A stretch of 42,895 bases of DNA from a virus, in the IMG/VR virus record IMGVR_UViG_3300029922_000131, positions 1 through 42,895 of that record. One strand, given 5' to 3'. The notes beneath the pieces were generated by a model that was given only the letters and a program-made list of their open reading frames with translations, was not told the origin of the DNA and did no database searches. The position numbers and the translations under genes are program-made. Shown in pieces: positions 4,052 through 23,222 of the stretch; the stretch's first letter is position 1; each line of letters begins with the position of its first letter.

Positions 4052-5103
4052 GACTGCTTCCCTTCCTTCACCGACACCAGCATTCCGTGGAAGGCGGTCA
4101 GATCAGCCGGCTTGACGCTGGCGATCGTGTGGACCTGGAACGTCTCCATGACCGCCATGACATCCTCGTCCTTCATGGTCTTGGCCAGGGCGACGCACAT
4201 CTCGACGGTGACGGCGGCGGGGATGGTCTGCTGCTTGCCGTCGCCGGTCGCCTGGTCCTTGGTGAAGCGGGCAGCCGGGTTGGCGTCGGGATGCTTGGCA
4301 TCCATCGCTGAGCGCCAGGTGGTCTCGCCGTCCTTGATGGCCGCATGCAGAGCGCGCAACTCGACCAGGTCGGCCGGGCTGAGCTTGTCGAGATCGGCGC
4401 CGATGTACTTCTTGAGGTCGACGACGCTGACGTTCAGCGCGGCGAAGGCGTCGAGCAGCTTCTTGCGAGCGGCATCGGGATCGGCCGCGTCGCGCTTCTT
4501 CTGCGTCTCGACGACCACGTCCATGCACTCGTCGATGAGGTCGCCGGGGACCAGGCGCAGGGCCAGGGTGCGGATCGCCTTGGAGAGCAGCGCGTTCTTC
4601 TTGTTGAGCAGATCGTCCTCGGTGGCGCGCAGGATGAACACGCGGTCGCCCTTGCTGTTGAAGCGCTCGCGGATGACCTCGTCTCCCTGCTTGGCGTTCC
4701 TGCGCTCCACCGTCTTGTCGATGGTGACGCTGGTGGTATAGGGCACGTTCGCCTCGAGATCGGTCACGCTGACCTGGATGATGCGCTTCTCGTCGTCGTC
4801 GTAGGTGGTGGTCTCATCGATGACGATGTTGCCCATGCAGCGGACGGCGGCCTCGGCGAAGCGGATCGAAGGGCCGACCACGCCCTTACCGATCGGCTTG
4901 TTGTAGCGGGCGACCTCGGCGAAGGACGGACGACGGCACTCCTTCAGGAGGAGCTCGCGGGCGCGGTCCATGTCGCGCGGACGGCTGATGGCGACGGTGT
5001 AGCGCGCCTCGACCAGGGCCTTGGTCTGCGAGGCAGCAGCTGATGCGGCGGTCTCGTTGGTGCGGTGGACGGTGGGAAGCATGGGGCTTTGCGGAGTGTT
5101 CAT
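4048..5103 (-). CDS. Putative single-strand annealing/recombination protein
   Basis: 351 aa from the ATG at 5101-5103, chosen because it overlaps the upstream stop as ATGA. The conserved-looking core reads ISRPRDMDRARELLLKEC, then RPSFAEVARYNKP and GPSIRFAEAAVRCMGNI, a pattern I know from phage proteins encoded beside exonucleases. The C-terminal third is a helical, Asp/Lys-rich tail. Because it neighbours an exonuclease and an SMC-like ATPase, a role as the annealing partner is likely, but the family assignment by eye is uncertain and it could instead be a conserved phage protein of unknown activity. Confidence 0.55.
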   Translation of the reverse strand: MNTPQSPMLPTVHRTNETAASAAASQTKALVEARYTVAISRPRDMDRARELLLKECRRPSFAEVARYNKPIGKGVVGPSIRFAEAAVRCMGNIVIDETTTYDDDEKRIIQVSVTDLEANVPYTTSVTIDKTVERRNAKQGDEVIRERFNSKGDRVFILRATEDDLLNKKNALLSKAIRTLALRLVPGDLIDECMDVVVETQKKRDAADPDAARKKLLDAFAALNVSVVDLKKYIGADLDKLSPADLVELRALHAAIKDGETTWRSAMDAKHPDANPAARFTKDQATGDGKQQTIPAAVTVEMCVALAKTMKDEDVMAVMETFQVHTIASVKPADLTAFHGMLVSVKEGKQS

Positions 5104-5390
5104 GGGGTGCTCTTGGTTCCGGTGGGGTTGGTGATGACGCGGCACTCAGCGATGCCCGCGCTGATGCGGTCGAACATCGCATTGCGATCACCCGTCACGA
5201 CGGTGAGCCGCAGGGCAAGCAGATAGTTGTTCAGGGCTTCGACGCGCCGGATCGCGCGCGCATCATCACTGACGAGCGTGCCGCGCATGTCGGTCGGATT
5301 GCGCGCCATCAACTCGGCTAGCAGATCTTCAAGCTTTTCTGCCAGCTGCGTTGACGTTGGGATTGGAGGGATTAGATTCTGTGCGTCCAT
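5100..5390 (-). CDS. Hypothetical early protein, 96 aa
   Basis: The ATG at 5388-5390 gives a protein starting MDAQNLIPPIPTSTQ. An in-frame non-ATG start at 5429 would place the start inside a perfect hairpin and is less likely. The body is helical and charged (EKLEDLLAELMARN) with no recognised motif. The stop overlaps the next ATG. No strong ribosome binding site is visible, so the hairpin upstream (5413-5439) may shape its translation. Function unknown. Confidence 0.6.
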   Translation of the reverse strand: MDAQNLIPPIPTSTQLAEKLEDLLAELMARNPTDMRGTLVSDDARAIRRVEALNNYLLALRLTVVTGDRNAMFDRISAGIAECRVITNPTGTKSTP

Positions 5391-5713: not shown

Positions 5714-6112
5714 TCAGGGGACATAGATCTGGGCGAGGTTCAAACAGTCTTGAGCATAGCGCCGAGCCGCTGCTGAGTGATCATGCCGTAGCCCCGAATG
5801 ATAGGCGCCCAAAGCGCTGCGCCAGTTCCGCGTGATCGCGTATAGATGTGCAAGCCAACGGCGGACGATACTCTCCGCATAGACGGGATCATGACCCGCT
5901 TGCCACGGATCCGCGTGGAGATCATGTAGTAGCGCTCGCGAAATTTGCCACGCGGACATATCCGGCCCCAGCCACTGAGGCGTACCAGATGCCAGGTGCC
6001 CGCGCCAGACTGAGCCGGTCTCGTGCATCGCGACAGCGGCAATGATCGCATCAGGTACATCTGGTCCTCCAACGAGTGTCAGGGTGGCGACGATGGCCGG
6101 TAGGGCGATCAT
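5714..6112 (-). CDS. Lysozyme-like (SLT-type transglycosylase) protein
   Basis: 132 aa. It starts with a short hydrophobic stretch (residues 2-16), which may export or anchor it. The lytic-transglycosylase pattern follows: AVAMHETGS with a candidate catalytic Glu31, then a WQIS segment near residue 55, and near the C-terminus WRSALGAYHSG, which matches the ALAAYNAG-type motif of SLT domains. It would cut peptidoglycan glycan strands and is the best endolysin candidate here. A one-TM protein is encoded just upstream. The ATG overlaps the stop of a 15-codon ORF. It is short for a complete SLT domain, so activity is inferred. Confidence 0.65.
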   Translation of the reverse strand: MIALPAIVATLTLVGGPDVPDAIIAAVAMHETGSVWRGHLASGTPQWLGPDMSAWQISRALLHDLHADPWQAGHDPVYAESIVRRWLAHLYAITRNWRSALGAYHSGLRHDHSAAARRYAQDCLNLAQIYVP

Positions 6113-7988: not shown

Positions 7989-8366
7989 ATGGGCAGTTTA
8001 CCGTCAGCAACCTCACATCTCGAAGCCGAGGCCATCGCTCTGATCAACAGCCTCACCGCGCTGTGGGGCCAGCTCGACGCGGCCGAGACCCGCCACGTCG
8101 AGAGCGATCCGCTCAGGCGCAGCACGCTGTCCCGGATCAAGCACGTCCAGGAGACCAATGGCGTATTCATGGCCATCCGCCAGCTTTTCCACATACCTGA
8201 AAATGTCAGGGTCTCCGACTTCCCGCAATGGCTGGAGCAGGCGATGCAGATCCAGAAAGATCGCATGTTCGCCGAGTGGCAGGAGCGGCTGGCGAGGAAG
8301 CGCATCGAGGCGCCGATGGAGCAGGACTTTGAGCCAGACAACTTCCTGGTCCATGGTGGGGAATGA
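7989..8366 (+). CDS. Hypothetical helical protein, 125 aa
   Basis: ATG with a strong AGGGAG ribosome site at 7975-7980. The protein is mostly helical (LEAEAIALINSLTALWGQLD), with Arg/Glu-rich stretches near the C-terminus and an acidic tail. No membrane segment or catalytic motif is seen. The TGA overlaps the next ATG at 8363. Function unknown. Confidence 0.7.
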   Translation: MGSLPSATSHLEAEAIALINSLTALWGQLDAAETRHVESDPLRRSTLSRIKHVQETNGVFMAIRQLFHIPENVRVSDFPQWLEQAMQIQKDRMFAEWQERLARKRIEAPMEQDFEPDNFLVHGGE

Positions 8367-8899
8367 GACATACCATAGAACAGATCCAGGCAGTCGTACG
8401 CCGATCTATCAAGAGAGATAGGAAGCCGCGGAAGAACGACGGATCGGTCTACGTCGACCAGAGCGGGACTGCTGGGACTCCAGAGTACAAGGCGTGGTGG
8501 GCGGCGAGGAAGAGATGCGCCGATCCCACCGATTTGGCCTTCTCCGATTACGGTGGTCGTGGCATTCGCATGTGCCAGGAGTGGATTGATTCGTTCGCCA
8601 GCTTCCTTTTGTCTGTTGGACCACGGCCGAGCCCAGGACATTGGATCGACCGCGAGGACAGCAATGGCAATTATGAGCCCGGGAATTGTCGATGGATCCC
8701 AATGCCGATGAGCAACCGGAACAAGAGGAACAACGTCATCCTGACTGCGTTCGGTGAAACCAAGTGCGAATCAGAGTGGGCCGATGAGTTCGGCATGGGT
8801 CGGACCACCTTGCGCGCGCGGCTGAAGACCGGCATGGATCTACATATCGCTCTCTGTCTTCCGAAACAAAAGTACGAAAGGAAATCACCATGCCCGTAG
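8363..8899 (+). CDS. HNH-like homing endonuclease family protein
   Basis: 178 aa. Residues 42-115 carry the pattern of a phage endonuclease-like family: YKAWWAARKRC, then YGGRGIRMCQEW, a WIDRED pair near 94, and NGNYEPGNCRW. The last third (FGETKCESEWADEFGMGRTT) resembles a DNA-binding helix-turn-helix that these proteins often carry. They are usually free-standing mobile nucleases. Coupled to the upstream gene (ATGA) and overlapping the next by 10 bp, it is well embedded in the operon rather than recently inserted. The nuclease call is by motif only. Confidence 0.65.
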   Translation: MRHTIEQIQAVVRRSIKRDRKPRKNDGSVYVDQSGTAGTPEYKAWWAARKRCADPTDLAFSDYGGRGIRMCQEWIDSFASFLLSVGPRPSPGHWIDREDSNGNYEPGNCRWIPMPMSNRNKRNNVILTAFGETKCESEWADEFGMGRTTLRARLKTGMDLHIALCLPKQKYERKSPCP

Positions 8900-9246
8900 A
8901 CATGGACCACGACTGGCACATGCACCCCAAGGACTTCCCTGATGAGCATTCGCGCAAGATGCACATCGGCAACATCTGCATGGGGATCTTGCACACCAGG
9001 TATCCCGCGCCCAAGGGATCGCTGTCCGTGGTGACCCAGGAAGCGATCGTGAAGTACGGGCCGAGGTTGGGCACTCAAATCGACAATATGTTCAGAGACT
9101 GCTGCGAGACAGGAAGGAGCATCCACTACAAGGTGCTGTGGGCGCCGGATGGTTCACCAGTCATCGAGCCGATGAACAAGAAGATCATCATGCCCACCGA
9201 TCTCGACACGTTCGAGATCGCCAAGAAGAACGCCGAGCGGAACTAG
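8890..9246 (+). CDS. Hypothetical protein, last of the rightward operon, 118 aa
   Basis: Begins MPVDMDHDWHMHPKDFPDE; the N-terminus is rich in His, Asp and Met, which could bind metal. The remainder is alpha/beta with no recognised motif. It overlaps the preceding gene by 10 bp. Its TAG stop (9244-9246) shares a CTAG palindrome with the stop of the fibre gene on the other strand. There is no room for a terminator between the two convergent genes. Confidence 0.7.
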   Translation: MPVDMDHDWHMHPKDFPDEHSRKMHIGNICMGILHTRYPAPKGSLSVVTQEAIVKYGPRLGTQIDNMFRDCCETGRSIHYKVLWAPDGSPVIEPMNKKIIMPTDLDTFEIAKKNAERN

Positions 9247-11435
9247 GGCAGACGGACAGCTGTTATGCTGCCATCTATAACCGGACTTCCCGCCGCATAC
9301 GTCAGATTGCATGTCAAGAACTCGCTGGTCGTGGCGCTGATGTTGACCACCTGGGGATCGATGGTCATCACGAAAAGACCGTTGGCGAGCAGCGACAGCG
9401 CCGACTGTTGCACCATCGTGGTGCCGCTGGTTCCGGTCGCTGCCGTGCCGACCGGGCAGGATGCCTGCATCGTGCTGCCGGCGGTCAGTCCGGTAGCGCC
9501 ACCATGAATGATGACCTTGCCGCTGACAAGCCACTTGCCTGCCGTGAGCGAGACGCTTCCGACGTTGCCAGTGGCCGTGGTCAGTCCGGCTGCAACTGCG
9601 GAGAATGCGCCGGTGATCGTCTCGCCGACGGCACCGACCGTGTCCGCAGCAGCGTTGTTGCGGCCATAAAGAATTGGACCGCCAAAAGTATTCGCAGCAG
9701 GATTTGCTCCAGGGGCGGTTATGATGCCAGTGGGATCTACGTGAAACTTGGATACGCTAGCGGTTTGGAGATCAAGCAGATACGATCCCGCACCACTGGC
9801 CGTGTTGGTGATATTGACCTTTTGCCCGACAAAGACCTGCGCACCATTATTCCAGGTGCCAGTGACATTGAGGAGGGCCTGTCCGTTTGCGGTCTGAGTC
9901 TGCGGTGTGATATTCACGCCATAATCGTTTACCTCGAAGATCAGGGCATTTCCGGTTCCTGGCTGAGTAGAGGTGCCCGCTGATGCGCCGGTGTTCAGAT
10001 AAAGCCGGATGCCATTTCCAGATCCCACCGATCCACTATGTCCTGACTGAAGCCAATGGGCAAAGCCCTTGCCGGCTTGTCCAAACTCCATTTTCATCTG
10101 CGAGACGACACCGGAATAGGTGCTGTTGTCGCCATTCTGAGCATCGAATGCGGCACTCCCTGCTGTTACAGCGGTTGCAGTATAAGATGTACCTTGACCG
10201 CTTGACGTAAGTGTGGTGAACGCACCGCTCCCGGCTGCCGTTCCACCAATAGAGCCAGGAGAGGCGAATGTCGCCCCACCGAGGCTTGAAGCATTTAGGT
10301 TAGCGACGTTGGTGGTGCTGGTCACCGCAAGCGGCGCGGTGCCAGTTGCCACGTTGCTGATGAGCTGCGTTCCGGTGACTGTGCTGCCGCCGGTGATCGC
10401 GCCGCCAATGCCGGCGCCCCCGATCACAACCAATGCGCCAGTCCCAGTCGTGGTGCTGGCAGTGGTGTTGCTGACGGTCGTGATGGCGCTGAAGGTCTTG
10501 GCACCGCTGACGGTCTGTGCCAAGCCAAGCGTACCCACCGTATCGGCGCCAGTGATGTTGGGGAAGCTGAGCGTCTGGCTTGTCGTCTGAGCCTCGGATA
10601 GCGTCAGGATCGTCGAAGCCGTGGCACCACTGGGCAGGAACCGAATCTGCTTTGATGGTGTGGTCACATCGTTGATCGACACTCCGTTGGCATAGTCCAC
10701 GTTCAGCACGGCGGTCGGCGTGGCGCCTACGTCGATGTTCACGGTCCCGGTTGCACCGACTGCGCCCACATCCAACAGGTTGTCGGACGAGTAGAGGTAG
10801 CCACCATGCGCCACGGTAAACGGTGCAATGCCGCCGGCTGATCCGTTGATGCCGAAGTCGACGTAATGAGTGGAGGCGGTGCCGTCGTTTGCGGTCGCCG
10901 TGAAATCGGTGCTCGCCGAGCTACCGGAGCTCAGGTTCTGAAGCTGAAGCTCGAAGTAGTTATTGATGCTGCCCTGGTAGAAGGCCGCCTCTTGGGTGCC
11001 GGGCGGGATAATCGCCGGGGTCGCACCGACTGCCGTCACTCCGGTATCATCGACCTGGAATATCACCGCGCCCTGGTTGTTGATCTGCTGCTGGTAGATG
11101 TGCGGCGTGGTGTAGATCACCGCCACCGCCGTGCCGCTGGTGTATGCAGTGCAGTTCCATCGATAGAGTCCTGGCACCACGAAGGTCAGCGCGGTCTGCG
11201 TGGTGGTGTAGGTCCCGATGTTCGTCCAGTTCACGTTGTCCGTGCTGAACTGGAATACCAGGGTCGCCGAGAAGGTGCCGGTGATCGAGTAGGTCCCGGT
11301 CATCGCCGGGTTCTGCCCCCCGGTCAGCGGTACCGCGACGCTGGTGGTCGCGCTGGTGAAGCTGGTGCTGACCGTGGCGGCCGGCGCCAGCGATGTCAGG
11401 AGAGCTAGGAGGAGGATCGAGAGGTTACGCAACAT
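9243..11435 (-). CDS. Secreted or virion fibre protein with signal peptide
   Basis: 730 aa from the ATG at 11433-11435, which has AAGGA upstream; a longer frame upstream is less likely. Residues 1-22 form a clear signal peptide (MLRNLSILLLALLTSLAPA) with likely cleavage near APA. The mature part is Thr/Ser/Gly/Ala-rich with repeats typical of phage fibres (GGAGIGGAITGGSTVTG, GSIGGTAAGSGAFTTL). The last 130 residues resemble a fibre-tip beta domain (VGSVSLTAGKWLVSGKVI). A signal peptide is unusual on a tail fibre, so it may be displayed on the cell or used in the periplasm. It is the last late gene, overlapping the lipase by 11 bp. Confidence 0.7.
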   Translation of the reverse strand: MLRNLSILLLALLTSLAPAATVSTSFTSATTSVAVPLTGGQNPAMTGTYSITGTFSATLVFQFSTDNVNWTNIGTYTTTQTALTFVVPGLYRWNCTAYTSGTAVAVIYTTPHIYQQQINNQGAVIFQVDDTGVTAVGATPAIIPPGTQEAAFYQGSINNYFELQLQNLSSGSSASTDFTATANDGTASTHYVDFGINGSAGGIAPFTVAHGGYLYSSDNLLDVGAVGATGTVNIDVGATPTAVLNVDYANGVSINDVTTPSKQIRFLPSGATASTILTLSEAQTTSQTLSFPNITGADTVGTLGLAQTVSGAKTFSAITTVSNTTASTTTGTGALVVIGGAGIGGAITGGSTVTGTQLISNVATGTAPLAVTSTTNVANLNASSLGGATFASPGSIGGTAAGSGAFTTLTSSGQGTSYTATAVTAGSAAFDAQNGDNSTYSGVVSQMKMEFGQAGKGFAHWLQSGHSGSVGSGNGIRLYLNTGASAGTSTQPGTGNALIFEVNDYGVNITPQTQTANGQALLNVTGTWNNGAQVFVGQKVNITNTASGAGSYLLDLQTASVSKFHVDPTGIITAPGANPAANTFGGPILYGRNNAAADTVGAVGETITGAFSAVAAGLTTATGNVGSVSLTAGKWLVSGKVIIHGGATGLTAGSTMQASCPVGTAATGTSGTTMVQQSALSLLANGLFVMTIDPQVVNISATTSEFLTCNLTYAAGSPVIDGSITAVRLP

Positions 11436-12192
11436 TGTGGAGTTCCTTCTGTAGGTAAAGGCTGACAGATGAGGCATAGTTGGCGAGCTTGTGATCTTGG
11501 AGCGCCTGACCGTCGACATCGGCGAGGAGGTACCGTGCCTCTTCGCGCATCATGCGATTGAAGCCGAACAGGTTGCGGAACCAGTTGCGGGCATCGCTGG
11601 TGGCCGTGCCATCATCCAGGAGGTGCAGCAGGCCGTCGACGTGGTGGTAGTTGATGTTCGGGACGCGCGGGACGATGTCGTAGTGATGGACGACGCGGGT
11701 GGTCTCAATGGCCATTTTGTTGTACTGGGCCACGAAGGCGTCGTCACCGACCCGTGGGCTGCCGAAGGTCACGCAGGACACCTGGCGCCCGTAACCCTGG
11801 TGGACCATGTCGGAGGCATAGAGGGTGGCCAGGCCCCCCCCCAGGCTGTGGCCGACGACCAGGATGGGCTTGTCGCCTTCGTTGACGACGATCCTGTCCC
11901 TGACGCTCCCGTAGGCGCTCAGGAAGCCACTGTGGACCCGCGAGTCGTACCATTCGGTCTGGATGATCTGGGCATCAATTAGCATGTCCCGGATGCTTGA
12001 GGTCCCCTTGAATCCGGCGAGGTCGAACTGGTCACCGCGGGCGATGAAGCAGCGGGTGTCGGTCTCGATGGAATCGAAGCACTGGACCCCCGTGAATCCC
12101 AGCCTCCCCAGGCGGTCCGTGGCGTCCCCGTCTTCCAGGTAGGCGATCTGGGAGAAGAGGACGCATCCGGCAAGACTTGGCCATGCAGTCAC
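11425..12192 (-). CDS. Class 3 lipase (alpha/beta hydrolase)
   Basis: 255 aa from a GTG start. The Lipase_3 pattern is complete: FKGTSSIRDM near residue 61 (oxyanion region), VHSGFLSAY at 86-94, the nucleophile elbow GHSLGGG with Ser116, FGSPRVGD at 143-150, Asp172 in YDIVPRVP and His234 in DHKLANY, a plausible Ser-Asp-His triad. It would hydrolyse acylglycerols or other esters. No signal peptide is evident. It lies between a small membrane protein gene and the signal-peptide fibre gene, coupled by GTGA upstream and an 11-bp overlap downstream. It may attack outer-membrane lipids at lysis or entry. The substrate is not known. Confidence 0.88.
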   Translation of the reverse strand: MTAWPSLAGCVLFSQIAYLEDGDATDRLGRLGFTGVQCFDSIETDTRCFIARGDQFDLAGFKGTSSIRDMLIDAQIIQTEWYDSRVHSGFLSAYGSVRDRIVVNEGDKPILVVGHSLGGGLATLYASDMVHQGYGRQVSCVTFGSPRVGDDAFVAQYNKMAIETTRVVHHYDIVPRVPNINYHHVDGLLHLLDDGTATSDARNWFRNLFGFNRMMREEARYLLADVDGQALQDHKLANYASSVSLYLQKELHNVA

Positions 12193-12398
12193 GTCTTCGT
12201 GGCTCCTGGGGCAGCGGGTGGGGAGGGGGGTGGGTACATCGTGGCGATGATGTGCCCGGCCTTGCCGCAGACGACGATCGCGATGGCCGCGATAGCGCCC
12301 CAGTGGGAGTCCTGGCCGCAGGCCGCCTGGACCTGGCTGGCGACCACCTGGGCGATTCCCAGGACGGTCACGATCTGGGAGAAGGGCAGCGCCTTCAC
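12189..12398 (-). CDS. Small membrane-associated protein, 69 aa
   Basis: Begins MKALPFSQIVTVLGIAQVV, with a second hydrophobic stretch (HWGAIAAIAIVVCGKAG) around residues 32-48 and a Pro-rich tail (PPPSPPAAPGA). Two weak membrane helices and a location between an Ala-rich protein and the lipase make it a candidate holin or membrane helper of the cassette. It overlaps both neighbours by 4 bp. I cannot assign it to a holin family. Confidence 0.55.
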   Translation of the reverse strand: MKALPFSQIVTVLGIAQVVASQVQAACGQDSHWGAIAAIAIVVCGKAGHIIATMYPPPSPPAAPGATKT

Positions 12399-13027
12399 GG
12401 GCTCACCGGAGCGGCTGGGGGCGTGGCTGCGGCCGCGGTTGCCGTCCCGTGGGCGACCGCTGCAGCCGTCTGGTCGGAACTGCTGGCCCTGGTGGTGGCC
12501 GCGACCAGGTGGCTGGCGGCGGCCACGCTGGCGGTGACCAGCGCCTGCTGATCCGGCGGCAGGGCGGCGGTTGCCTCGGCATGCGATGCCGCCATGTCGG
12601 TGGCGCCGACCTGGATGGCAGCCACCGCGTCGGCCGCGCCAGCCGCACCCAGCGTCCCGGTCAGGGCGGTCTGGATGGTCGGCGCGAAGGTCTTGGCGAG
12701 ACCGGCGACCACCCCGATGGCGATGGCCTGCCCGGTCGCGCTGGGAGTTGCTGAGGTCTGGGCGGCCTGGGCAGCCTTGATGCCCTGCTCGGCGAGCTCT
12801 ACCCCTGCACCGATGGCGGGCGCCAGAGCTGGATCGGCTGCGCTGGCGATGGCGCCGGCGATCGGCAGGGCGACCGCGGCGTCTTTCTCGACCTCGGCCA
12901 GGACCTGATCGGCGGTGGTGGGATCGCCATCCTTCGAGGTCTGCTCGGCGATGGCCTGCGACTCGGCCGCTGCCTTGGCCGGGTCGTTCAGGATGTCCTG
13001 GACGGACGGGACTGGGAGGTCGCTCAT
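12395..13027 (-). CDS. Ala-rich protein, function unknown
   Basis: 210 aa from the ATG at 13025-13027, which overlaps the upstream stop as ATGA. Nearly a third is Ala, with glycine-zipper-like hydrophobic patches (ALPIAGAIASAADPALAPAI, later AIAIGVVAGLAKTFAP) separated by Gln/Thr/Asp stretches, and a Pro/Ala tail. Such composition fits a membrane-inserting or flexible virion or lysis protein, but no family is recognised. It belongs to the run of five coupled genes ending in lipase and fibre. Confidence 0.6.
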   Translation of the reverse strand: MSDLPVPSVQDILNDPAKAAAESQAIAEQTSKDGDPTTADQVLAEVEKDAAVALPIAGAIASAADPALAPAIGAGVELAEQGIKAAQAAQTSATPSATGQAIAIGVVAGLAKTFAPTIQTALTGTLGAAGAADAVAAIQVGATDMAASHAEATAALPPDQQALVTASVAAASHLVAATTRASSSDQTAAAVAHGTATAAAATPPAAPVSP

Positions 13028-13281
13028 GGCGTGGCTTTCCCGGCCTTGGCCGGCGCTGTGGGGTTGGTAGTGGGGAGAACAGGTGGCACCAGATCGTGAC
13101 CCATGGCGTGGCCTATGGACACACACTGGAGCATGATCTGCGTCACGGCTGGGCTAGGCGGCAGGGTGGCCGCGTAGTTGAGCGCGGTCTGCGCGCTGTT
13201 GGCCACATCCTGATCCCGTGTTGCCGGCACGCAGCTGGCGAGTGAGATGAGCAGGCAGGCGATGAGGGCGATCTTGATCAC
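13024..13281 (-). CDS. Small lipoprotein, possible outer-membrane spanin
   Basis: 85 aa. The N-terminus MIKIALIACLLISLASC is a lipoprotein signal with Cys17 in an LASC lipobox. The rest is polar with a Pro-rich tail (PPVLPTTNPTAPAK). Size and lipobox fit the outer-membrane spanin (Rz1-like), and the gene directly upstream (9-base gap) encodes a one-TM protein fitting the inner spanin. Together they could fuse the inner and outer membranes at lysis of a Gram-negative host. The pair is inferred from layout. Confidence 0.6.
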   Translation of the reverse strand: MIKIALIACLLISLASCVPATRDQDVANSAQTALNYAATLPPSPAVTQIMLQCVSIGHAMGHDLVPPVLPTTNPTAPAKAGKATP

Positions 13282-13290
13282 GGTGGTCTC

Positions 13291-13638
13291 CTAGTGGGGA
13301 GGGTGATAACCGGGGAGTGGGGTCTTCCGGGGTGTGTCGTCGACCAGGCACTTGCGCTCTTTCAGGGCTCCGAGCAATTGGCGAAACAGGCCAGTCTGCT
13401 CGCGCGTTTCTGCGGTGAGAACCGACATCACATCATTGCCCTTGGCAATGTGGCTAGTGAGGATGTCAGTCTTCTCGGCCTGAACGGTGTCGAGCCGATG
13501 GCTCAACGACTTGACCAGGTTGAATAGAAATCGTCCGAAGATGAAGACCACCACCACCAGGAGCACAAGGAGGGTGGCGACGATGCCGCCGACCTTCCAG
13601 ACTTCTGCGGTGATGCTTGCAAGCGTTGCGGGATCCAT
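13291..13638 (-). CDS. Single-TM protein, possible inner-membrane spanin or holin
   Basis: 115 aa from the ATG at 13636-13638, preferred because GGAG lies six bases upstream; another ATG at 13648-13650 would add four residues. Residues about 16-38 form one membrane helix (VGGIVATLLVLLVVVVFIFG). The following charged helix (LVKSLSHRLDTVQAEKTDIL) could be a coiled coil. This resembles inner-membrane spanins and some holins. It lies between the tailspike and the lipoprotein gene. Confidence 0.6.
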   Translation of the reverse strand: MDPATLASITAEVWKVGGIVATLLVLLVVVVFIFGRFLFNLVKSLSHRLDTVQAEKTDILTSHIAKGNDVMSVLTAETREQTGLFRQLLGALKERKCLVDDTPRKTPLPGYHPPH

Positions 13639-13667: not shown

Positions 13668-15866
13668 CTAGTTGAAGGTGAGACCAGTTGAGTAGGCGGA
13701 ATTGATCGTCATGACGTCCCATACACCAGCAACGGTGCAGCTCAGCTCCACGCCGATGTTGATGGTCGTGATGTCCAGCGGCATATTCACGTTCGAGCAC
13801 CCGAATATTTTATCAGCCGCCTGCGGTTGCATCCGCAGTGTAAACGCAACCTGGCGACGAAACCGCAGCTTGATGCCTGGCTGCGCCACCGGCAGGTTAT
13901 AAATGCATAGGCCGCCACCATAAGTAGAGGTGAATGTCCAGCCATTCTGGCTGACGTTGATCGTATGCGTAAAGTCTGCCGTCTGATAGACCTTGCTCGT
14001 TCCAATCAGGCCATTGAGCTGATACGGATACGCATTCGCCCAATATTCTGCGCCATTGATGACACCCGGCTGAATCTGATTATCGAGATCCAGCGTGGCA
14101 TAGAGCGCGGATGCTGCGACTTCAGTGGCCGGAACCGCCGTCGATCCCCATTGAATCGGCCAGGTATCGACCAGACCGACATTGTTCTTCATCCGGCACA
14201 GATTAGGAATATGGAAGAGGCGGATGATGCACGACGATGACGTTCCGCCGTCGAGGCTGAAACAGTCGCTGTTCAGAATGATGACCTCAGTCGGGCTTGA
14301 GATCGGATACCCCGTCTGTGTCGTCGCGAAATTATTGACAGCGGTCATGCTGCCCGTCTCGCCGCCAAATCGGCACGCATCGATAAGCACAGCGCCAGTG
14401 CGGCCTCCATTCACATAGACGGTCGAACTGTAATAATTATTGATCCACGCCGTTTCGGTGTAGATTCCGCGCGCGCTCGGGACGAGGAGGATCCCTCGCA
14501 TCACCAGGCGACCATAGTTGTTGATCGATGCCTGCTGGTTTGCCGTGGGGGTTCCGCTGCTGATCCAGCAATTATCCAGCACGCAGTAGTCACAGGCATT
14601 GTTGTTCAGCACCACGAAGCAATTATAGAATATGCATCCGGTGATGGTGACGATCGATGACTGGCAGGTATTGTCGATGGCCGTGGCGCAATTGAGGAAG
14701 ATGCAATTGCGGATCGTCAACTGACCGGAGTTGACATTGTTGTTATTGAGCTGGATCGCCGAGCCGCCGATGAAGGAGATGCCGTCGATGAGCAGGCGAT
14801 ATCCCGGACCAGGAGAGCTCGGCGCGAAGACATATCCCCCCATCGAGGGGATGATTTGCGCGCGATTGCCGCGGATCATCAGATACGAATAGTAATTGAT
14901 CGTCGAGGAAACCTTGTAGAGCCCCTGCGGGAATATCACCTCGGGATAATTGCCATCATAAATGGCGGTATACAGCGTCGATACCGTAATGGCATTCGCC
15001 CAGGTGATCGCTGCCTGGATGGCCGCCGTATCATCGGTGATTCCGTTGCCCGTCGCGCCAAACTGCTTCACATTGACCAGTTGGTTGACCGCCAGGAGAT
15101 TGAATCGGCCAGTAACGACTCCTGCAACCTGGATGATGGAACCGCCATTGTCGACCCTGGTGTCTGCCGAATTCCAGACATACACCGACTGTCCACCGTC
15201 GGCGGCAGCGGCATATCCAGCGGTCGCAATGAGGATTCCTGCGAGCGTCGGCTGAGTGGCAAGACGCAACGAGGCGACATTGAGGACTTGCTGCTCGACG
15301 CCAAAGATCGCTGCGGCTGCGGTAAGTGACGTCGCCTGTACAACTGGCTGCATCGCTGTCGAGATCGGTACGCCACTCGTTGGTCCAGGGGTGACGATGG
15401 CGTTACCAGCCGAATCGTAGGCCTGGAAGAGATTGGCGCGCTGGGATGCCGACGGGAGTAAGGTCGTCGTTCCCTCATTGATCGGGATCCGGATACTCTG
15501 TGCAATCTGCGTGGCCAGCGCCTGGATGCTCATCGTGTCGAGATCGAACTGCTGCTCGACGCTCGTCGGATCATAGCTGCCCTGGTTCTGGAGATCGGTG
15601 TCCTGGACCGGGTTGGGATTGCGGAACAGGATGACGTTGTAGCCGGCGGTGATATTGCCGCCGTTGAAGGTGACGGTACCGCCCCCGGGATTGGCCAGAC
15701 CGGCAAGGGTGTAGGTGCTCGACGACTGGAGGACCGGGCTGGCGCCTGGGACCTGAATGTAGACCAGGATGTCGACGGCGTTGAGGAAACGCCAGGGGAT
15801 GGTGAAGGTCGCCTGGCTGCCCGAGGCGACGTACGAGACCGGCTGTGCGACTGCGGCTACGGTCAT
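13668..15866 (-). CDS. Tailspike with beta-helix (pectate-lyase-like) domain
   Basis: 732 aa. The first about 110 residues (VSYVASGSQATFTIPWRFLN, YNVILFRNPNPVQD, VEQQFDLDTMSIQALATQI) match the virion-attachment part of T7-like tail proteins. From about residue 265 a beta-helix begins with the Pectate_lyase_3 signature NVKQFGATGNGITDDTAAIQ. Short repeats rich in Asn, Cys and Ile follow (IRNCIFLNCATAIDN). This architecture is that of a capsule or O-antigen depolymerase that determines host range. It follows the internal virion genes, as expected. The substrate cannot be read from the sequence. Confidence 0.88.
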   Translation of the reverse strand: MTVAAVAQPVSYVASGSQATFTIPWRFLNAVDILVYIQVPGASPVLQSSSTYTLAGLANPGGGTVTFNGGNITAGYNVILFRNPNPVQDTDLQNQGSYDPTSVEQQFDLDTMSIQALATQIAQSIRIPINEGTTTLLPSASQRANLFQAYDSAGNAIVTPGPTSGVPISTAMQPVVQATSLTAAAAIFGVEQQVLNVASLRLATQPTLAGILIATAGYAAAADGGQSVYVWNSADTRVDNGGSIIQVAGVVTGRFNLLAVNQLVNVKQFGATGNGITDDTAAIQAAITWANAITVSTLYTAIYDGNYPEVIFPQGLYKVSSTINYYSYLMIRGNRAQIIPSMGGYVFAPSSPGPGYRLLIDGISFIGGSAIQLNNNNVNSGQLTIRNCIFLNCATAIDNTCQSSIVTITGCIFYNCFVVLNNNACDYCVLDNCWISSGTPTANQQASINNYGRLVMRGILLVPSARGIYTETAWINNYYSSTVYVNGGRTGAVLIDACRFGGETGSMTAVNNFATTQTGYPISSPTEVIILNSDCFSLDGGTSSSCIIRLFHIPNLCRMKNNVGLVDTWPIQWGSTAVPATEVAASALYATLDLDNQIQPGVINGAEYWANAYPYQLNGLIGTSKVYQTADFTHTINVSQNGWTFTSTYGGGLCIYNLPVAQPGIKLRFRRQVAFTLRMQPQAADKIFGCSNVNMPLDITTINIGVELSCTVAGVWDVMTINSAYSTGLTFN

Positions 15867-15914: not shown

Positions 15915-18900
15915 TCACTTCTTCGCCTTCGGTGGTCCGACGGCGAGGTTCCAGAGCTTGTTCAGCGCGTCCGCTTCATGGGTCTGGTTGTAGCGCCAGC
16001 CATCCCAGATGTTCCCGAGTTGAGTGGCCGGTACGCCCAGCAGCGGGCCGGTGGCCCCTAATGCGGCGTGGACATCTTTGTCGACCGTCTTGTGCTTGGC
16101 ATTCGCCGCGTAGTTGACGGCGCCCTGGATGTTGTGCATCCACCCCATGCCGGTCACGCTGGCGGGCTGATGGCCATCGAAGAGCGGCGCCATGAGGTCA
16201 CGGAGCAGCGGAACGGTGTGCACGAAGGATGCCGCGCCGGCGGTCAGCAGGTTCTCTGCTGCGCCACCCGGTGTCTCCCAGGACTTCAACTGATCGTCGA
16301 GGCTCTTGTGCTTCATGGTGTCGTAGATGAAGTTCCAGACGATGCCCTGCCCCATCGTGCTGGCTAGGATGCGGACCACGCCCTTGAGCGCCTGTCCGGC
16401 GTCGCCCTTCTCGATGCCGTAGCGCACCTGGTGGAACGATCCGGCCACGTTGTTGTAGTTGGCGATGTCGAAGGTCATGCGGTTGAGCAGGGCCTTGAAC
16501 GCCGGGTTGCGCTTCAACTCCGGGATGTCCTTGTCGGCATTGGAACCGGCAATGCGGTTGACGACCTGCATGGCATAGGCGGCCGATTCCTTGGGGTTGC
16601 TGGTCAAGGCCATGTGCTTCTTGAACGCGGCATTGGCGGCGATCACGGACTGCGATTGCCAGAAGAGCTTGTGGACCATCCACATGCCCGCCTGCTGCAT
16701 CTTATCCTTGGCATCGGTGTAGAGCGGGATGTTGTCGGTGATGTGCTCCTGGGCCTTGGACTGCGCTTCGAGCTCGGGCATGAGGTCGTACATGCGACGG
16801 GTGACGCCACGGACATTCAGACCGTACTCGATCGCCGATGCGATGGCGTGCAGGCCACCGACCTCACTGGCCACTTGGACGGACTGTGATGCGTGGGCCG
16901 CGGCGAACACCGGATTGAATCCCCAGGCGGCGAAGTTGGCGTTGCTGGTGATGGTATTCACAAACTTGGCGAGGAAGCCGACCGATCGGCGGTTGCCCAC
17001 GGCCATGCCCTGCGCCTGTCGCAGGAAGACTTCGTAGCCGTGGCGACCAAGCGCACGCTCCATGGCGTCCTTGACCGTGGCGTTGGTTAGCAGCTTGAAG
17101 TTGTTCACCAGGAAATCGCGGTGGGAGAGCTGGTGGACGACCTCGTACTGCGCGCGATCCCAGTCGGCCAGGTTGAGGCTGACGGCCTTCCCCTTGAGAT
17201 TCGCCACGCGCTCCTTGCCACCGGCCACCGTCATGCCGCGCGTCGCTGATCCGCTCAGGATGCCCTGGGTGATCTCCTCGGGCGACTGCTCGGGCATGCC
17301 GTCGTAGTAGAGGTGATCGTAACCGCCCTTGTAGATGCCGTTCGGCAGTTTGACTGGCAACGCCTCGACCTTCTCGCGCGCGAATCCGTTGTACTTCTCG
17401 TCCTGCGCCTTGATCTCGGACCACAGCGATTCGCGGTTGTCGACCATCTTGTTGCTGTAGGCGATGTCCTTGGCGTCCAGGCTCGAGAGGATCTTGATCA
17501 CATCCTCGTGGCTCAGGCCGTGCATGTCCTGAACGCGCTGCCGGCCTTCCTTATGGCCGTAGGTCGCCAGGAGCTTGAGTTTCTCGCCCAGGCTCATCGT
17601 CGACCGAGGGTTGATCAGTTCATTGTCCGAACCCATGCGCCCCCACTGGATGCCCTTGGGCAGCGGCTTCTGACGCGTCAATTCGAGGCTGTTGCGCTTG
17701 CCCCATTCGGCGTTTGCCGCCCGCTTTGGTGCGTTCAGTCGCTCGGACAACTGGATCTCGCTGGCGTAGGCTTCGCCGGCCGGATGCACGAACGTCCGCT
17801 GCATCGGTCCCAGCTTGTGACCGTCTGCCTGCTCGGCGAGACGTGCCGGCCCTACAAGTTCCGCAAGGTAGTGCGCCAGCTTCCCGATGAACCCATGATC
17901 ACCCATCCATCGCTTGATGGAGTTGGCCTCCAAGCCGGTAGCGATCTCGTTGGCCTTGGCCTGCAACTCGATCGCCTTCCCCTCGGCATCGACTGAGTTC
18001 TTCAGCCGTGCCATCTTGGCCAGGTTGTCGACGGCGTTGCGCACGTCACGGAACTCGTCGACTGTCAGCGTCTTCCAGTTGCGCTTGCCTGCCTTGTACT
18101 GATCCAGCACCGAGTCCGGGATGTCGGCCGCAAAGCCGGTCGGGTGGCCGTTGCTGTCGAACATCTCGCCGTACAGAAAATCCTGGATATTTTTCAGCGT
18201 CTGGAGGTTTTTTGACCCCAGGGTGGTCAGGTTGTAGAGATCCAGGATTTTATCGATCTGATCAAGATAGGGCGCCGTGCGCTCGAAGGTGCCGCCGGCA
18301 TTCATGGCCTCGGTGCGCGCGTCCTTCTCGGCCGATGTGCCGCCGTCCTTGGGTGATGAAAAGGACTTCTGTGGCCGACCATCGGGGTAGGTGACGGTCC
18401 ACTCGTAGCCGCCAGCCTTGCCGATGGCCTTGCGGGTTGCCGCGTTCGTCGCGATCTGTTTGAGATGGGCGCGGTCAGCCTCGGCGCGATCCTGGGCCTT
18501 GAACGCAGCCTTGGCCAGTTCGGCGTTCATCAGCTGCTGACGTTTCGCCTGCCAGGCATCGTCGTACCGGCCGTCATGCATGGCCTCGGCGTACCGCTCG
18601 GCCGCCTTCTTCTCGCCGGCCGTGAACCTCTCGGGCTTGAGCGACGACACCGTCTGCTCGCGCACGATGGCCTTGGCGGCGATCGTCATCTGCTTGCGCT
18701 CGAGGCGGAAGTCCGGGCGCTCGACGCCAGCGAGCTGGGCAGCTTGGCGGGTCTCGATTTCCAGAAGGCGTGCGCGAATGTTCGGCAAGTGCAGCGCGGT
18801 GTCGGCCAGGCGACTCATCAGCGCAGGGTCTTCGCTCGGCACAGGGTACTTGGATTTCATCGCGGTGTCGGTCAGTCCGTCGATCTTCTGATCCCGGTCC

Positions 18901-21900
18901 TCGGCCCTGGCCAGATCGGTCAGCATCTCGGCGCCGCTCTGGTAGCCCAGCGTCTTGGCGGCCGTTTCCACGTCGGTCGTGTCCTCGTTGGAGAAGATCG
19001 ACGGGCCACGGTTCTTGCTCGCCTCGTCGTGCTTGCCGGGCAGCGCAGCCAGTTGATCCTTGCCCAGCAACTTCTCGACCTCGGAGCGCTTCAGCTTGAT
19101 GCGCGGCGTCTCCCGGCCATCCGGCGTCTCGCCGTGCTGCAGTGCCGACATGGCGCGGTATGCCGGCTCCTGTCCGACCTGGTCAGCAATGCGGCTGCGC
19201 ATGTCGGCGCGGTCGGCCTTGGCGGCATCAGATTCCGCCTTCAGCGCCAGGTCGTTTAGCTTGCCGTTGAGCTCGTCGCGTGCCGCCTGGTGAGCCGACC
19301 GCAGGAGGTTCTGGTACTCGTCCCATTGTTCGACGGACATGCCGGACTTGGCGCGATCGGTCCACGCCGGGGTGTCTGATACGCGCTCCCTGGCTGCCTG
19401 AATCTCCGTCTCGCTGGCCAGCATGCGATCAAGCACGCCACGCACATCGTCATTCAGATCATCGACCTTCAGGCTGGACACCTGCTTGTAGATGTTCATC
19501 AGCCAGCCCTTGAAGCGGGCGAAGGCACGGCGCAGGCCGATGGTTGGCGCGATCCCTTCCATGACGTAACGCTCGAAGGCGCGCGCCAAGCGTTCGTGCG
19601 GCTCGGCCAGCTCCCTGAGACGAGCCTTCTGTCCGTCCGTAGCCTCTCCATCGCCAATAGCCTCATGGATGGCCATCATCTCGTCTCGGGCCTTGATCAT
19701 GCCGGCGCGGTCACCAAACCCGGACCATGTCATCAGCTTCTGATAGTCGTCCTTGAGCTCCTGGGGCGCGTCGGCGCGATCGACCAGCTTGCCCATGACT
19801 TCCGTAAAGTAGTGCATCGTCTCATGGAGGGCCGTGCTGGCGTTCTTGCCCGACCACAGGGTGATGACGTGCGTCAGGTCATCATCGATGTGGTAGGTGC
19901 CCTGTGGTGCACCGCCCTCCCCCTGACCCAGGGAGATCCCGCGCTCGGCGTCCTTCTTGGCCGCCTCCATGATCATCTTGTGCCAAGCCGGATCCGCGGC
20001 ATCCGGGCGCTTCCCGCCGTTGGCCTTCGCCCACTCACGCATGATGGCGAACACATCGAGGCGTCCGGATGCCGGGGCGTTGATGCGCTCGCCCTGCTGC
20101 AGGACGATGCGCTTGCCCGTGCCGGGCGCGCGCAACAGGTTCATCTCGCCTTCGGAGCGGTACGGCTCCGGGTTCAGGTCGGCCGGAGGCTCTCCAGTCC
20201 AGTCGCGCACCTTGCGCAGGCCGGGCTTCAGATCGTGCTCGTACTCGTCGATCTCCTTCTCGCTGTAGCCCTTGCTGCGGAGATATTCGCGCTCCACGGC
20301 GTTGGCGACGTCGTGCGCGTCGTCGTAGGACATGCCCTTCTTCATCAGCCGCGTCTCGGTGATCTCATGCAGCGACGTGGGGATGACGGTCTCGATCTCG
20401 CCACCCTCGCGCATCTTCATCTTCAGCGGGAACTGCGGATCGATGTAGCGCTTGGTTTCGGCCACATCCATGCCCATGCCGTAGGGCACGTTCTTGGCTT
20501 TGACGAGCGGCACCTTGGGGAGTTCGGCCAGAGACTCGGCCAGGTGCGCCTGGATGGCCGGACGCCCCATCTTGGCTTCGACGGCATCGGCGCGCGCCTT
20601 GTCCTGGACGGGGTCGTAGCCGCCATGCGGCTTGCGGCCGCTCGACGTTCCCAGGCCATGGGCGTCGCCCTGCTCTGAGCGCGTCTGCTCGCCCAGGATG
20701 CCCATACGCTTGCCAAACTCGGCCAGGACGTCCTTGTTGGAGTGCTTGGCGAGATCGATGCCGAGACGCTTCAGCGCGCTGTTGGCCTCCGTCTCGACGG
20801 GACCGGTAGGACCGGATGTGCGCAGGCGGTCCAGCAGGCCATTGATGTTCCCGTTGGAGATCTGCTCCTCGAGGACCGACGGCAACTTGGCGGCCACGCG
20901 CGTTTGGAATCCAGCGCGCACATCCTCGGCTGTCATGGGACTGGCGCCGGCATCACCGCGCACCCGATTGAACAGGGCGGCCAGCTTGCTGAAAAAGGTC
21001 TGGTGGATGCCGCCCAGGTAGCTCGCGCGCGCCTCCGGTTCGCCGGCCGCCAGGAATTGCTGCTTCACCGTCTCGGCGATGCTGCCGCCTTCGCTCACGG
21101 GGGCGGTGTTCGCGGCCAGTTCGGTCTGCGCCAGGATCTTCGCCCGCTCCTGGAGGTCGGCGAGCTTGGTCGGGTCCTCCTGGATGCTCTTGGCCGCCTC
21201 CTCGGGGGTGGGCGCATCGGGTGCCAGACTCACCTTGCCGGTGATGTTGGCGCCCTCGCCAGCCTCGGATCCCAGCTGCATGAAGGCGCCCATGGGGACC
21301 TTCATCTTGGTCGCCAGTCCCTGGGCCTGCTTGTACTCATCGGTCAGCCCGAGCTTGGCCGCATACTCCTGCGGGGTGGTGCCCAGGGACTCGGCGTGCC
21401 TGGCGAAGTCGTCGGCCTGCATCCAGACCGCCGTGCGCCCACGGGCCGCCAACTGGTCGATGAGGCCCTGGACGGCCTTGGCGCCTCCGTCGCCGGTCTG
21501 GGCGGCCTGGGACTGCTTGTAGGTGTCGATCCCCATCTGCAGAAGGTCACCATCGTGAACCGCCTGCACCGCTTTCTGGCGTTGGGCCAGGAATGGACGG
21601 CTCATGGCATCGGGAAGGGCGAAGGCGGCTCCCGTGATACCGCCCGTTGCCGCCCCTACAGCCAGCCTCCTGGCCACGTTGTCGGGCTTGAGGGCCTCCG
21701 GGTCCACTCCGGTGAGATAATCGCTCAGCGAGCCTGCCAGCGCCTGCACGGCCCCTATGCCGGCCTGTGGCACCGCGCTGGTGACCAGTTCCCTGAGTGC
21801 GCCACGGTAGCCGGCCGGCACCTTGGCGATCGACTCTTCCGGTGACGGATTGAGGCGCCGGTACTCGGCTTCGGCAAGCTGCTGACGCTGCTTCTCCAGC

Positions 21901-23222
21901 GCGAGGACCTTGGCGCCCTGCTCTGTCTGTGCGTATTCCGTGATACCGAAAGGCTTTGCGGTTTCACCGGCGCCAGTCGGCCCCCAGCCGCGTTCCAGCA
22001 CGATCTGCTTGTCGATGGCATCGATCTGCGGGGTGCGGATCTTTTCAAGCGCGCCGGCAGGGATTGATTCGCCGGCGTCACCAAGCAAGTGCTTGGCAAC
22101 ACCGACTTTGCCGAACGCTCCTGGGATGACGGTGTTCAGCAGAGCGTCCATGGCACCTGGAACGATGCCATGCTCCTGCGCGGTCTCGGCACCGCTGACC
22201 GCAGCCATGGGCGCCATCGTGGCGGCTACCGGCAGCGCTTCGGTACTCAGGTACTTGGCGATGCGCGCGCCGACGAACGGCGTGAACAGCGACTCGGCGC
22301 GCCGGGCCCGCAGGATGCCCTCGGCGAGCTTGCCCACCGGGCCGCCGGCGAGCATCAGCGGGAGGGTAGCGACCTGGCCACCGATCGCGCGCTTGACGTC
22401 GCCCCAGACGCCTGGCGACTCCTGCGCCGAGAGGATGCCGGTGTAGTCGGCGGTGGTTCCGGTGGGGTACGGGCCCTGGTGAACGAGCTTCAGGAACCGC
22501 TCGCCCTCGGACAGGAATCCGGCGCCGATGTCGCCCAGACCGGCCTTCGCCAGGGTATCGTAGACGCCACGGTTGGCCTGAAGATTGACCTCGTTGGCGA
22601 GCTCGTTGTTGCCCTTCTCGCGCAGGCGATCCTGAAGGTCCTGGATCGTGTCATACTGCTGAGCGTTCGCCCCCTGTGGCTCGATGATCTTGCCATGCGA
22701 GAACAGGAATCCCTCGGGCAGGACGCCCAGAGCATCACCGTCCGGATTGGCGAGTTGCTGGGTGATGTGCGACAGCGTGGTCAGCACCGGGACATCGTTC
22801 TTGGCGATGCCGGCGTTGTTGGGTTGGCTCAGCCAGTTGAGCAGATCTGGGTGATCCCGCTGGAGCTCCGGAACGTTGATCCCCTGAAGGGCCTTGGCGC
22901 GGGCTATGTCCTCGACCTTGGCCTCGTTGCCATCGACCAGGCCGGGCGACAGGCCGGTGCGGTTCGAGAGGTCCAGGATCTTGGCATGCTGATCCGGGGA
23001 CTTCTGCGATGCCGCCAGGAGGCTGGAGCGCAGTCGGACCTCCTGTGCGGATGCGTACTGGTCGATCGCGGTATCGAAGTCGGTCGGGGTGGTTCCCGGC
23101 GGGGTCGGCGGTGCTGCAGTCTGCTGCGGAGTGCTGCTGGGTGCTGCATCTTGCTGCACGGGTGGCTTGGGACCGGCATCGGCTAGGTACTGATCCGTGG
23201 CAACATCGAAATCAGTGCCCAT
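15915..23222 (-). CDS. Giant internal (ejected) virion protein with zincin motif
   Basis: 2435 aa, the largest gene here. Its place after gp14- and gp15-like genes matches the ejected core protein gp16 of podoviruses, and the composition fits 'large polyvalent' phage proteins. It carries an HExxH motif, HETMH at residues 1133-1137, and a downstream ARAFERY segment with Glu1217 as a possible third zinc ligand, suggesting a metallopeptidase. Several regions are Ala/Gly-rich hydrophobic (about 270-360), which could line a membrane channel during DNA entry; much of the middle is helical. No transglycosylase motif is clear. The stop lies about 50 bp before the tailspike. Confidence 0.75.
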   Translation of the reverse strand: MGTDFDVATDQYLADAGPKPPVQQDAAPSSTPQQTAAPPTPPGTTPTDFDTAIDQYASAQEVRLRSSLLAASQKSPDQHAKILDLSNRTGLSPGLVDGNEAKVEDIARAKALQGINVPELQRDHPDLLNWLSQPNNAGIAKNDVPVLTTLSHITQQLANPDGDALGVLPEGFLFSHGKIIEPQGANAQQYDTIQDLQDRLREKGNNELANEVNLQANRGVYDTLAKAGLGDIGAGFLSEGERFLKLVHQGPYPTGTTADYTGILSAQESPGVWGDVKRAIGGQVATLPLMLAGGPVGKLAEGILRARRAESLFTPFVGARIAKYLSTEALPVAATMAPMAAVSGAETAQEHGIVPGAMDALLNTVIPGAFGKVGVAKHLLGDAGESIPAGALEKIRTPQIDAIDKQIVLERGWGPTGAGETAKPFGITEYAQTEQGAKVLALEKQRQQLAEAEYRRLNPSPEESIAKVPAGYRGALRELVTSAVPQAGIGAVQALAGSLSDYLTGVDPEALKPDNVARRLAVGAATGGITGAAFALPDAMSRPFLAQRQKAVQAVHDGDLLQMGIDTYKQSQAAQTGDGGAKAVQGLIDQLAARGRTAVWMQADDFARHAESLGTTPQEYAAKLGLTDEYKQAQGLATKMKVPMGAFMQLGSEAGEGANITGKVSLAPDAPTPEEAAKSIQEDPTKLADLQERAKILAQTELAANTAPVSEGGSIAETVKQQFLAAGEPEARASYLGGIHQTFFSKLAALFNRVRGDAGASPMTAEDVRAGFQTRVAAKLPSVLEEQISNGNINGLLDRLRTSGPTGPVETEANSALKRLGIDLAKHSNKDVLAEFGKRMGILGEQTRSEQGDAHGLGTSSGRKPHGGYDPVQDKARADAVEAKMGRPAIQAHLAESLAELPKVPLVKAKNVPYGMGMDVAETKRYIDPQFPLKMKMREGGEIETVIPTSLHEITETRLMKKGMSYDDAHDVANAVEREYLRSKGYSEKEIDEYEHDLKPGLRKVRDWTGEPPADLNPEPYRSEGEMNLLRAPGTGKRIVLQQGERINAPASGRLDVFAIMREWAKANGGKRPDAADPAWHKMIMEAAKKDAERGISLGQGEGGAPQGTYHIDDDLTHVITLWSGKNASTALHETMHYFTEVMGKLVDRADAPQELKDDYQKLMTWSGFGDRAGMIKARDEMMAIHEAIGDGEATDGQKARLRELAEPHERLARAFERYVMEGIAPTIGLRRAFARFKGWLMNIYKQVSSLKVDDLNDDVRGVLDRMLASETEIQAARERVSDTPAWTDRAKSGMSVEQWDEYQNLLRSAHQAARDELNGKLNDLALKAESDAAKADRADMRSRIADQVGQEPAYRAMSALQHGETPDGRETPRIKLKRSEVEKLLGKDQLAALPGKHDEASKNRGPSIFSNEDTTDVETAAKTLGYQSGAEMLTDLARAEDRDQKIDGLTDTAMKSKYPVPSEDPALMSRLADTALHLPNIRARLLEIETRQAAQLAGVERPDFRLERKQMTIAAKAIVREQTVSSLKPERFTAGEKKAAERYAEAMHDGRYDDAWQAKRQQLMNAELAKAAFKAQDRAEADRAHLKQIATNAATRKAIGKAGGYEWTVTYPDGRPQKSFSSPKDGGTSAEKDARTEAMNAGGTFERTAPYLDQIDKILDLYNLTTLGSKNLQTLKNIQDFLYGEMFDSNGHPTGFAADIPDSVLDQYKAGKRNWKTLTVDEFRDVRNAVDNLAKMARLKNSVDAEGKAIELQAKANEIATGLEANSIKRWMGDHGFIGKLAHYLAELVGPARLAEQADGHKLGPMQRTFVHPAGEAYASEIQLSERLNAPKRAANAEWGKRNSLELTRQKPLPKGIQWGRMGSDNELINPRSTMSLGEKLKLLATYGHKEGRQRVQDMHGLSHEDVIKILSSLDAKDIAYSNKMVDNRESLWSEIKAQDEKYNGFAREKVEALPVKLPNGIYKGGYDHLYYDGMPEQSPEEITQGILSGSATRGMTVAGGKERVANLKGKAVSLNLADWDRAQYEVVHQLSHRDFLVNNFKLLTNATVKDAMERALGRHGYEVFLRQAQGMAVGNRRSVGFLAKFVNTITSNANFAAWGFNPVFAAAHASQSVQVASEVGGLHAIASAIEYGLNVRGVTRRMYDLMPELEAQSKAQEHITDNIPLYTDAKDKMQQAGMWMVHKLFWQSQSVIAANAAFKKHMALTSNPKESAAYAMQVVNRIAGSNADKDIPELKRNPAFKALLNRMTFDIANYNNVAGSFHQVRYGIEKGDAGQALKGVVRILASTMGQGIVWNFIYDTMKHKSLDDQLKSWETPGGAAENLLTAGAASFVHTVPLLRDLMAPLFDGHQPASVTGMGWMHNIQGAVNYAANAKHKTVDKDVHAALGATGPLLGVPATQLGNIWDGWRYNQTHEADALNKLWNLAVGPPKAKK

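Follow-up and report, generated by a model that had tools for sequence, protein, structure and literature searches.

What does a class 3 lipase do in a tailed phage when its gene lies between a tailspike and a second fibre, and overlaps the genes on both of its sides? This question is raised by a viral genome, IMG/VR record IMGVR_UViG_3300029922_000131, whose whole analysed stretch of 42,895 nucleotides is referred to here as the window. An earlier note on this DNA had placed the lipase in the lysis and host-contact cassette of a phage with a Gram-negative host, and had proposed that it might weaken outer-membrane lipids. The explanation that we favour, and regard as quite possible, is a cytosolic late esterase, which would be freed at lysis and would cleave esters of the envelope or of surface polymers.

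The lipase gene product

The gene in question is the following.

11425 to 12192, minus strand: class 3 lipase (Lipase_3), 255 aa, GTG start, with a Ser116-Asp172-His234 triad

The product matches the PF01764 profile over residues 60-181 (E 9.5e-28), scoring 97 bits against a curated cut-off of 22, and also matches PHROG 21992, "esterase/lipase" (E 6e-18). A sequence search of the PDB returned 42 distinct entries, with fungal lipases on top. The three residues of the triad lie in the motifs GHSLGGG (Ser116), HYDIVP (Asp172) and DHKLANY (His234), and are invariant in both alignments of divergent phage lipases (17 and 19 sequences), whose members share 23-37% identity with the lipase of the window. 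The AlphaFold2 model has a pLDDT of 82.9 and a pTM of 0.84; it is of low confidence at residues 211-231, around His234, and the assignment of the histidine rests on conservation. With this model, Foldseek placed fungal class 3 lipases (Rhizopus, Rhizomucor) and an Aspergillus feruloyl esterase as the best matches, with E 1e-14 to the lipases, and the viral structure models matched best were class 3 lipases from giant viruses and a phage protein labelled "fungal lipase-like". Judged by sequence and model, this is an intact Lipase_3 gene with a conserved triad and the alpha/beta-hydrolase fold of fungal lipases, for which carboxylester hydrolysis is predicted. The claim of a complete Lipase_3 with this triad thus holds on profile, conservation and fold alike.

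Neither a signal peptide nor a transmembrane segment was predicted in the lipase sequence, and the N-termini of its nearest phage relatives, read by eye, have no obvious one of either kind. Nothing in the 255 residues was recognised by profile searches as a domain for anchoring in the virion, for trimerisation or for carbohydrate binding. A single-sequence scan of IMG/VR with the lipase gave no confirmed relatives.

The phage and its host

The virus that bears the lipase is a soil-type podovirus, related to epsilon15, BPP-1, Carin1, UFJF_PfDIW6 and Jess A. The window carries podovirus markers, namely a PF12236 portal, a GP7-family major capsid protein and tail tube proteins, together with a virion lysozyme-like protein (phrog_1044) and a 2435-aa internal virion protein. 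The latter, at 15915-23222 on the minus strand, contains a large-polyvalent-protein domain (LPD22) close to its N-terminus.

Related portals, in prophages, are found in Caldimonas, Hydrogenophaga, other Burkholderiales, Sphingomonadales and others. The host is probably Gram-negative, as the earlier note had held, because the hosts of the phage relatives and the bacteria with related portals are all diderm, and mostly proteobacterial. No Lipase_3 was found in the bacterial genomes whose prophages carry these related portals. Contigs L005-L011, which come from several further metagenomes, encode a portal protein 100% identical to that of the window, and the phage is thus not confined to a single sample; these contigs end before the position of the lipase, and are uninformative on its presence.

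The genes around the lipase

The lipase belongs to a run of minus-strand genes that extends from the tailspike to the fibre, listed here with the likely endolysin of the window.

13668 to 15866, minus strand: tailspike, with a phrog_1640-type N-terminal virion anchor and a pectate-lyase fold, by Pfam and PHROG matches
13291 to 13638, minus strand: 115-aa protein with one strong N-terminal transmembrane segment, i-spanin-like by architecture
13024 to 13281, minus strand: predicted lipoprotein, 85 aa, lipobox LASC, o-spanin-like by architecture
12395 to 13027, minus strand: Ala-rich protein, 210 aa, function unassigned, with 4-nt overlaps with both neighbours
12189 to 12398, minus strand: small membrane protein, 69 aa, with two hydrophobic segments by hydropathy, holin-like or a lipase partner
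9243 to 11435, minus strand: fibre-like protein, 730 aa, with a predicted signal peptide, overlapping the lipase end by 11 nt
5714 to 6112, minus strand: likely endolysin, 132 aa, hydrophobic at the N-terminus, with an SLT-like lytic transglycosylase match whose E of 4e-4 falls short of the family cut-off

Overlaps of 4 nt chain four consecutive genes, those of the lipoprotein, the Ala-rich protein, the small membrane protein and the lipase, whose start shares GTGA with the gene before it. At the other end, the fibre ATG at 11435 falls within the end of the lipase gene, and a Shine-Dalgarno-like sequence precedes lipase and fibre alike. The proposed coupling of the lipase to the small membrane protein and to the fibre is consistent with these overlaps. 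The distance from tailspike to lipase is 1.5 kb.

Several of these products stand alone in the searches. Pfam and PHROG yielded no family for the small membrane protein, the Ala-rich protein or the fibre; a single-sequence IMG/VR scan gave no confirmed relative of the small membrane protein, tblastn no phage match to the Ala-rich protein, and the fibre has no detectable phage homologue. The same kind of IMG/VR scan with the tailspike gave no confirmed relatives. The fibre also carries a predicted Sec signal peptide, which is unusual for a phage fibre.

A spanin-like pair had been described upstream of the lipase. The architecture and adjacency of the transmembrane protein and the lipoprotein fit a two-component spanin, but family support did not follow, as the best family match is the Rz-like phrog_456 at E 0.076.

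Is the cluster a lysis cassette?

Pfam and PHROG searches of the cluster found no family that names a holin or an endolysin, and the holin and spanin assignments within it rest on hydropathy and architecture. A scan of the other plausible open reading frames left the gene at 5714-6112, which contains the motifs MHETG and ALGAYHSG, as the sole endolysin candidate. It is possibly a SAR-type endolysin, encoded far from the other lysis-like genes. Since this candidate lies 5.3 kb from the lipase, with plus-strand genes (about 6.95-9.25 kb) in between, the run from tailspike to fibre is plausible, rather than proven, as a lysis cassette with a holin and spanins suggested by hydropathy. The label given to it earlier is therefore only partly upheld: the genes sit where BPP-1-like relatives keep their lysis genes, but the cluster has no endolysin of its own.

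The comparison with these relatives is as follows. In Carin1 the tailspike is followed by genes for small membrane proteins, an amidase and a lipoprotein, and in Jess A by genes for small proteins and an endolysin of the glycosyl-hydrolase type; behind its tropism cassette, BPP-1 has a transmembrane protein, an endolysin-like gene and bbp1. The annotations of this slot in the three phages include no lipase. By gene order, the lipase of the window occupies the slot of the lysis genes in BPP-1, Carin1 and Jess A.

Lipases in other podoviral contigs

A PF12236 portal is present on four further lipase-bearing IMG/VR contigs (L073, L026, L028 and L120), and in three of them (all but L120) the Lipase_3 gene comes right after the tailspike region. 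The lipase of L073, a contig of 45 kb, is 38% identical to that of the window, and its structural proteins are 24-34% identical; the order there is tailspike, a secreted HELLH-containing protein, a small protein, a protein with one transmembrane segment, lipase and a lipoprotein, the last with a 4-nt overlap. The tailspike directly precedes the lipase in L026 and L028, and in L028 the lipase is followed by a small gene, a transmembrane protein, an endolysin (phrog_17001) and a holin (phrog_3427). Unlike in the window, the Lipase_3 gene of L120 (5866-6711) is directly upstream of the podoviral portal gene.

A single origin of the podoviral lipases is unsupported, because a tree of 61 rows places them in more than one clade, at a cost of four label changes, and because that tree is poorly resolved, especially in its deep branches. 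A repeated recruitment of Lipase_3 by podoviruses is possible on this poorly resolved tree.

A wider survey of Lipase_3

The survey counted at least 503 stretches of IMG/VR with a relative of Lipase_3, a set that may include some cellular DNA. Five of 50 lipase records have a GH24 lysozyme, which in four of the five lies 0.6-3.4 kb from the lipase; the simulated P for this proximity is about 0.017, with thresholds picked after the data were seen. Two lipase records have a free SLT enzyme, 9 kb distant from the lipase in one and 16 kb in the other, and the profile search for Amidase_2 and Peptidase_M15_3 found neither in any of the 50. Many other lipase records have no evident lysis neighbour beside Lipase_3. 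An association between lipase and lysis genes across the survey is at most suggestive.

Predicted secreted proteases, trypsin-like or HELLH-containing, adjoin Lipase_3 in some records; they follow it in L024, L025 and L079, and in L073 the HELLH-containing one (4548-5150) precedes it. A fecal "phage" record, MT836410 (L004), encodes at 8068-10161 a multidomain lipase of about 700 aa that resembles type VI secretion effectors. It was set aside as a phage lipase, being longer, multidomain and effector-like in a record that is unannotated, and the record may be bacterial contamination.

Proposed role and its rivals

In the explanation that we favour, the lipase would be read late, together with the overlapping genes behind the tailspike, and would be retained in the cytoplasm, lacking an export signal, until lysis opens the membrane. 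The freed enzyme would then reach the envelope and hydrolyse esters, either the acyl chains of phospholipids or LPS, or the O-acyl groups of surface polymers. This cleavage would help to break the outer layers and to release virions from debris, alongside the spanin-like proteins and the endolysin encoded elsewhere. We infer the activity of the lipase, its timing, its release at lysis and its substrate alike. Release at lysis followed by attack on envelope or surface esters is favoured because of the missing export signal, the position in the operon and the lysis slot; the triad and fold, the recurrence in L073, L026 and L028, and the proximity of GH24 also speak for it. Against it count the cluster without an endolysin, holin and spanin calls made from hydropathy, the position in L120, and the distance of the free SLT enzymes. 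The lipase moreover adjoins a fibre, with the tailspike 1.5 kb away, and a role in host contact fits this arrangement.

The main rival is a virion-associated surface esterase, carried with the tailspike or fibre, which would deacylate capsule, exopolysaccharide or O-antigen, or loosen surface lipids, at adsorption. In the window the gene has a tailspike of pectate-lyase fold on one side and a second fibre on the other, in L026 and L028 it directly follows the tailspike, and in L120 it is beside the portal gene; the closest folds of its product include feruloyl esterases, whose substrates are polysaccharide esters. However, its 255 residues include no recognised domain for virion anchoring, trimerisation or carbohydrate binding, and genes for a membrane protein and a lipoprotein separate it from the tailspike, as other small genes do in L073; we hold this rival to be rather unlikely. 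A slightly weaker case can be made for an esterase that spills out at lysis and clears exopolysaccharide, biofilm and membrane debris for the spread of progeny, while being dispensable for lysis itself. Such a role resembles that proposed for a lysis-cassette lipase by analogy with phiNIT1 PghP (PMC12173070), and the secreted proteases predicted beside Lipase_3 in L073, L024, L025 and L079 recall sets of degradative enzymes. In the window, however, the neighbour is a fibre and not a protease, and the substrate role is putative, so that this explanation appears unlikely.

The lipase may also be accessory cargo, for host lipid turnover or the exclusion of competitor phages, without being tied to lysis or entry in particular. 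Phage Lipase_3 genes are found in many contexts, the podoviral ones are not one clade, and a lipase is lacking from the bacteria whose prophages have related portals, all of which would suit cargo. Yet the gene overlaps those on both of its sides, and its slot is common to L073, L026 and L028, and we judge cargo to be improbable. The esterase released at lysis remains our preferred reading.

Comparison with known systems

The fungal class 3 lipases and feruloyl esterases, such as those of Rhizomucor miehei (1tgl) and Aspergillus niger (FaeA, 1uwc), share the family, triad and fold of the lipase of the window. These fungal enzymes are secreted, whereas the phage lipase has no signal peptide, lies in a phage operon and has 24-28% identity to them over the structural alignments. 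Among phages, g71 of the Cylindrospermopsis phage Cr-LKS4 (PHROG 21992) has the same family and triad, but adjoins a dCTP deaminase, while the lipase of the window adjoins tailspike and lysis-like genes.

Also among the closest published systems is a siphovirus of Pseudomonas syringae (Nickievirus) whose lysis cassette encodes a GDSL-type lipase that is active on C2-C10 esters and has been proposed to act at, or weaken, the surface or outer membrane (PMC12173070, 2025). What the two phages have in common is an esterase gene within a lysis module, a putative one in the window, and a Gram-negative host, probable in the case of the window; the siphovirus enzyme is of another family, with a helix and a carbohydrate-binding domain, and lies beside a holin and an endolysin. 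The lipase of the window was rejected as one of this kind, having no GDSL family match and no adjacent endolysin. With this publication, the general idea of a Gram-negative lysis-cassette esterase is already in print, and the possibly new role once suggested is new only in part. A recurrence of class 3 lipases behind the tailspike in BPP-1-like podoviruses is not described in the literature searched. The lipase of the window could be a new tool to weaken Gram-negative envelopes, a use for which a different phage lipase has already been tried (PMC12173070).

Phages without recognisable spanins make up about 13% of 677 genomes, with BPP-1 among those listed, and call for another route of outer-membrane disruption (PMC6139136). 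For such a route, an esterase in a recurrent slot is a concrete candidate enzyme. One could go further and propose that podoviruses have repeatedly recruited Lipase_3 behind the tailspike to disrupt the outer membrane of diderm hosts enzymatically, either in support of spanins or in their place, and that the enzyme thereby parallels LysB beyond the mycolata; we consider this a long shot. Mycobacteriophage Ms6 requires LysB for efficient lysis (PMC5707550). An identity with LysB was discarded, as neither the PDB sequence matches nor the 50 best fold matches include a LysB, and class 3 lipases come first. The two are alike in concept, each being an alpha/beta-hydrolase esterase for the last barrier of the envelope, but LysB acts on mycolic esters in mycolata hosts, whereas the host of this phage would be diderm, like the mostly proteobacterial hosts of its phage relatives and of the related prophage portals.
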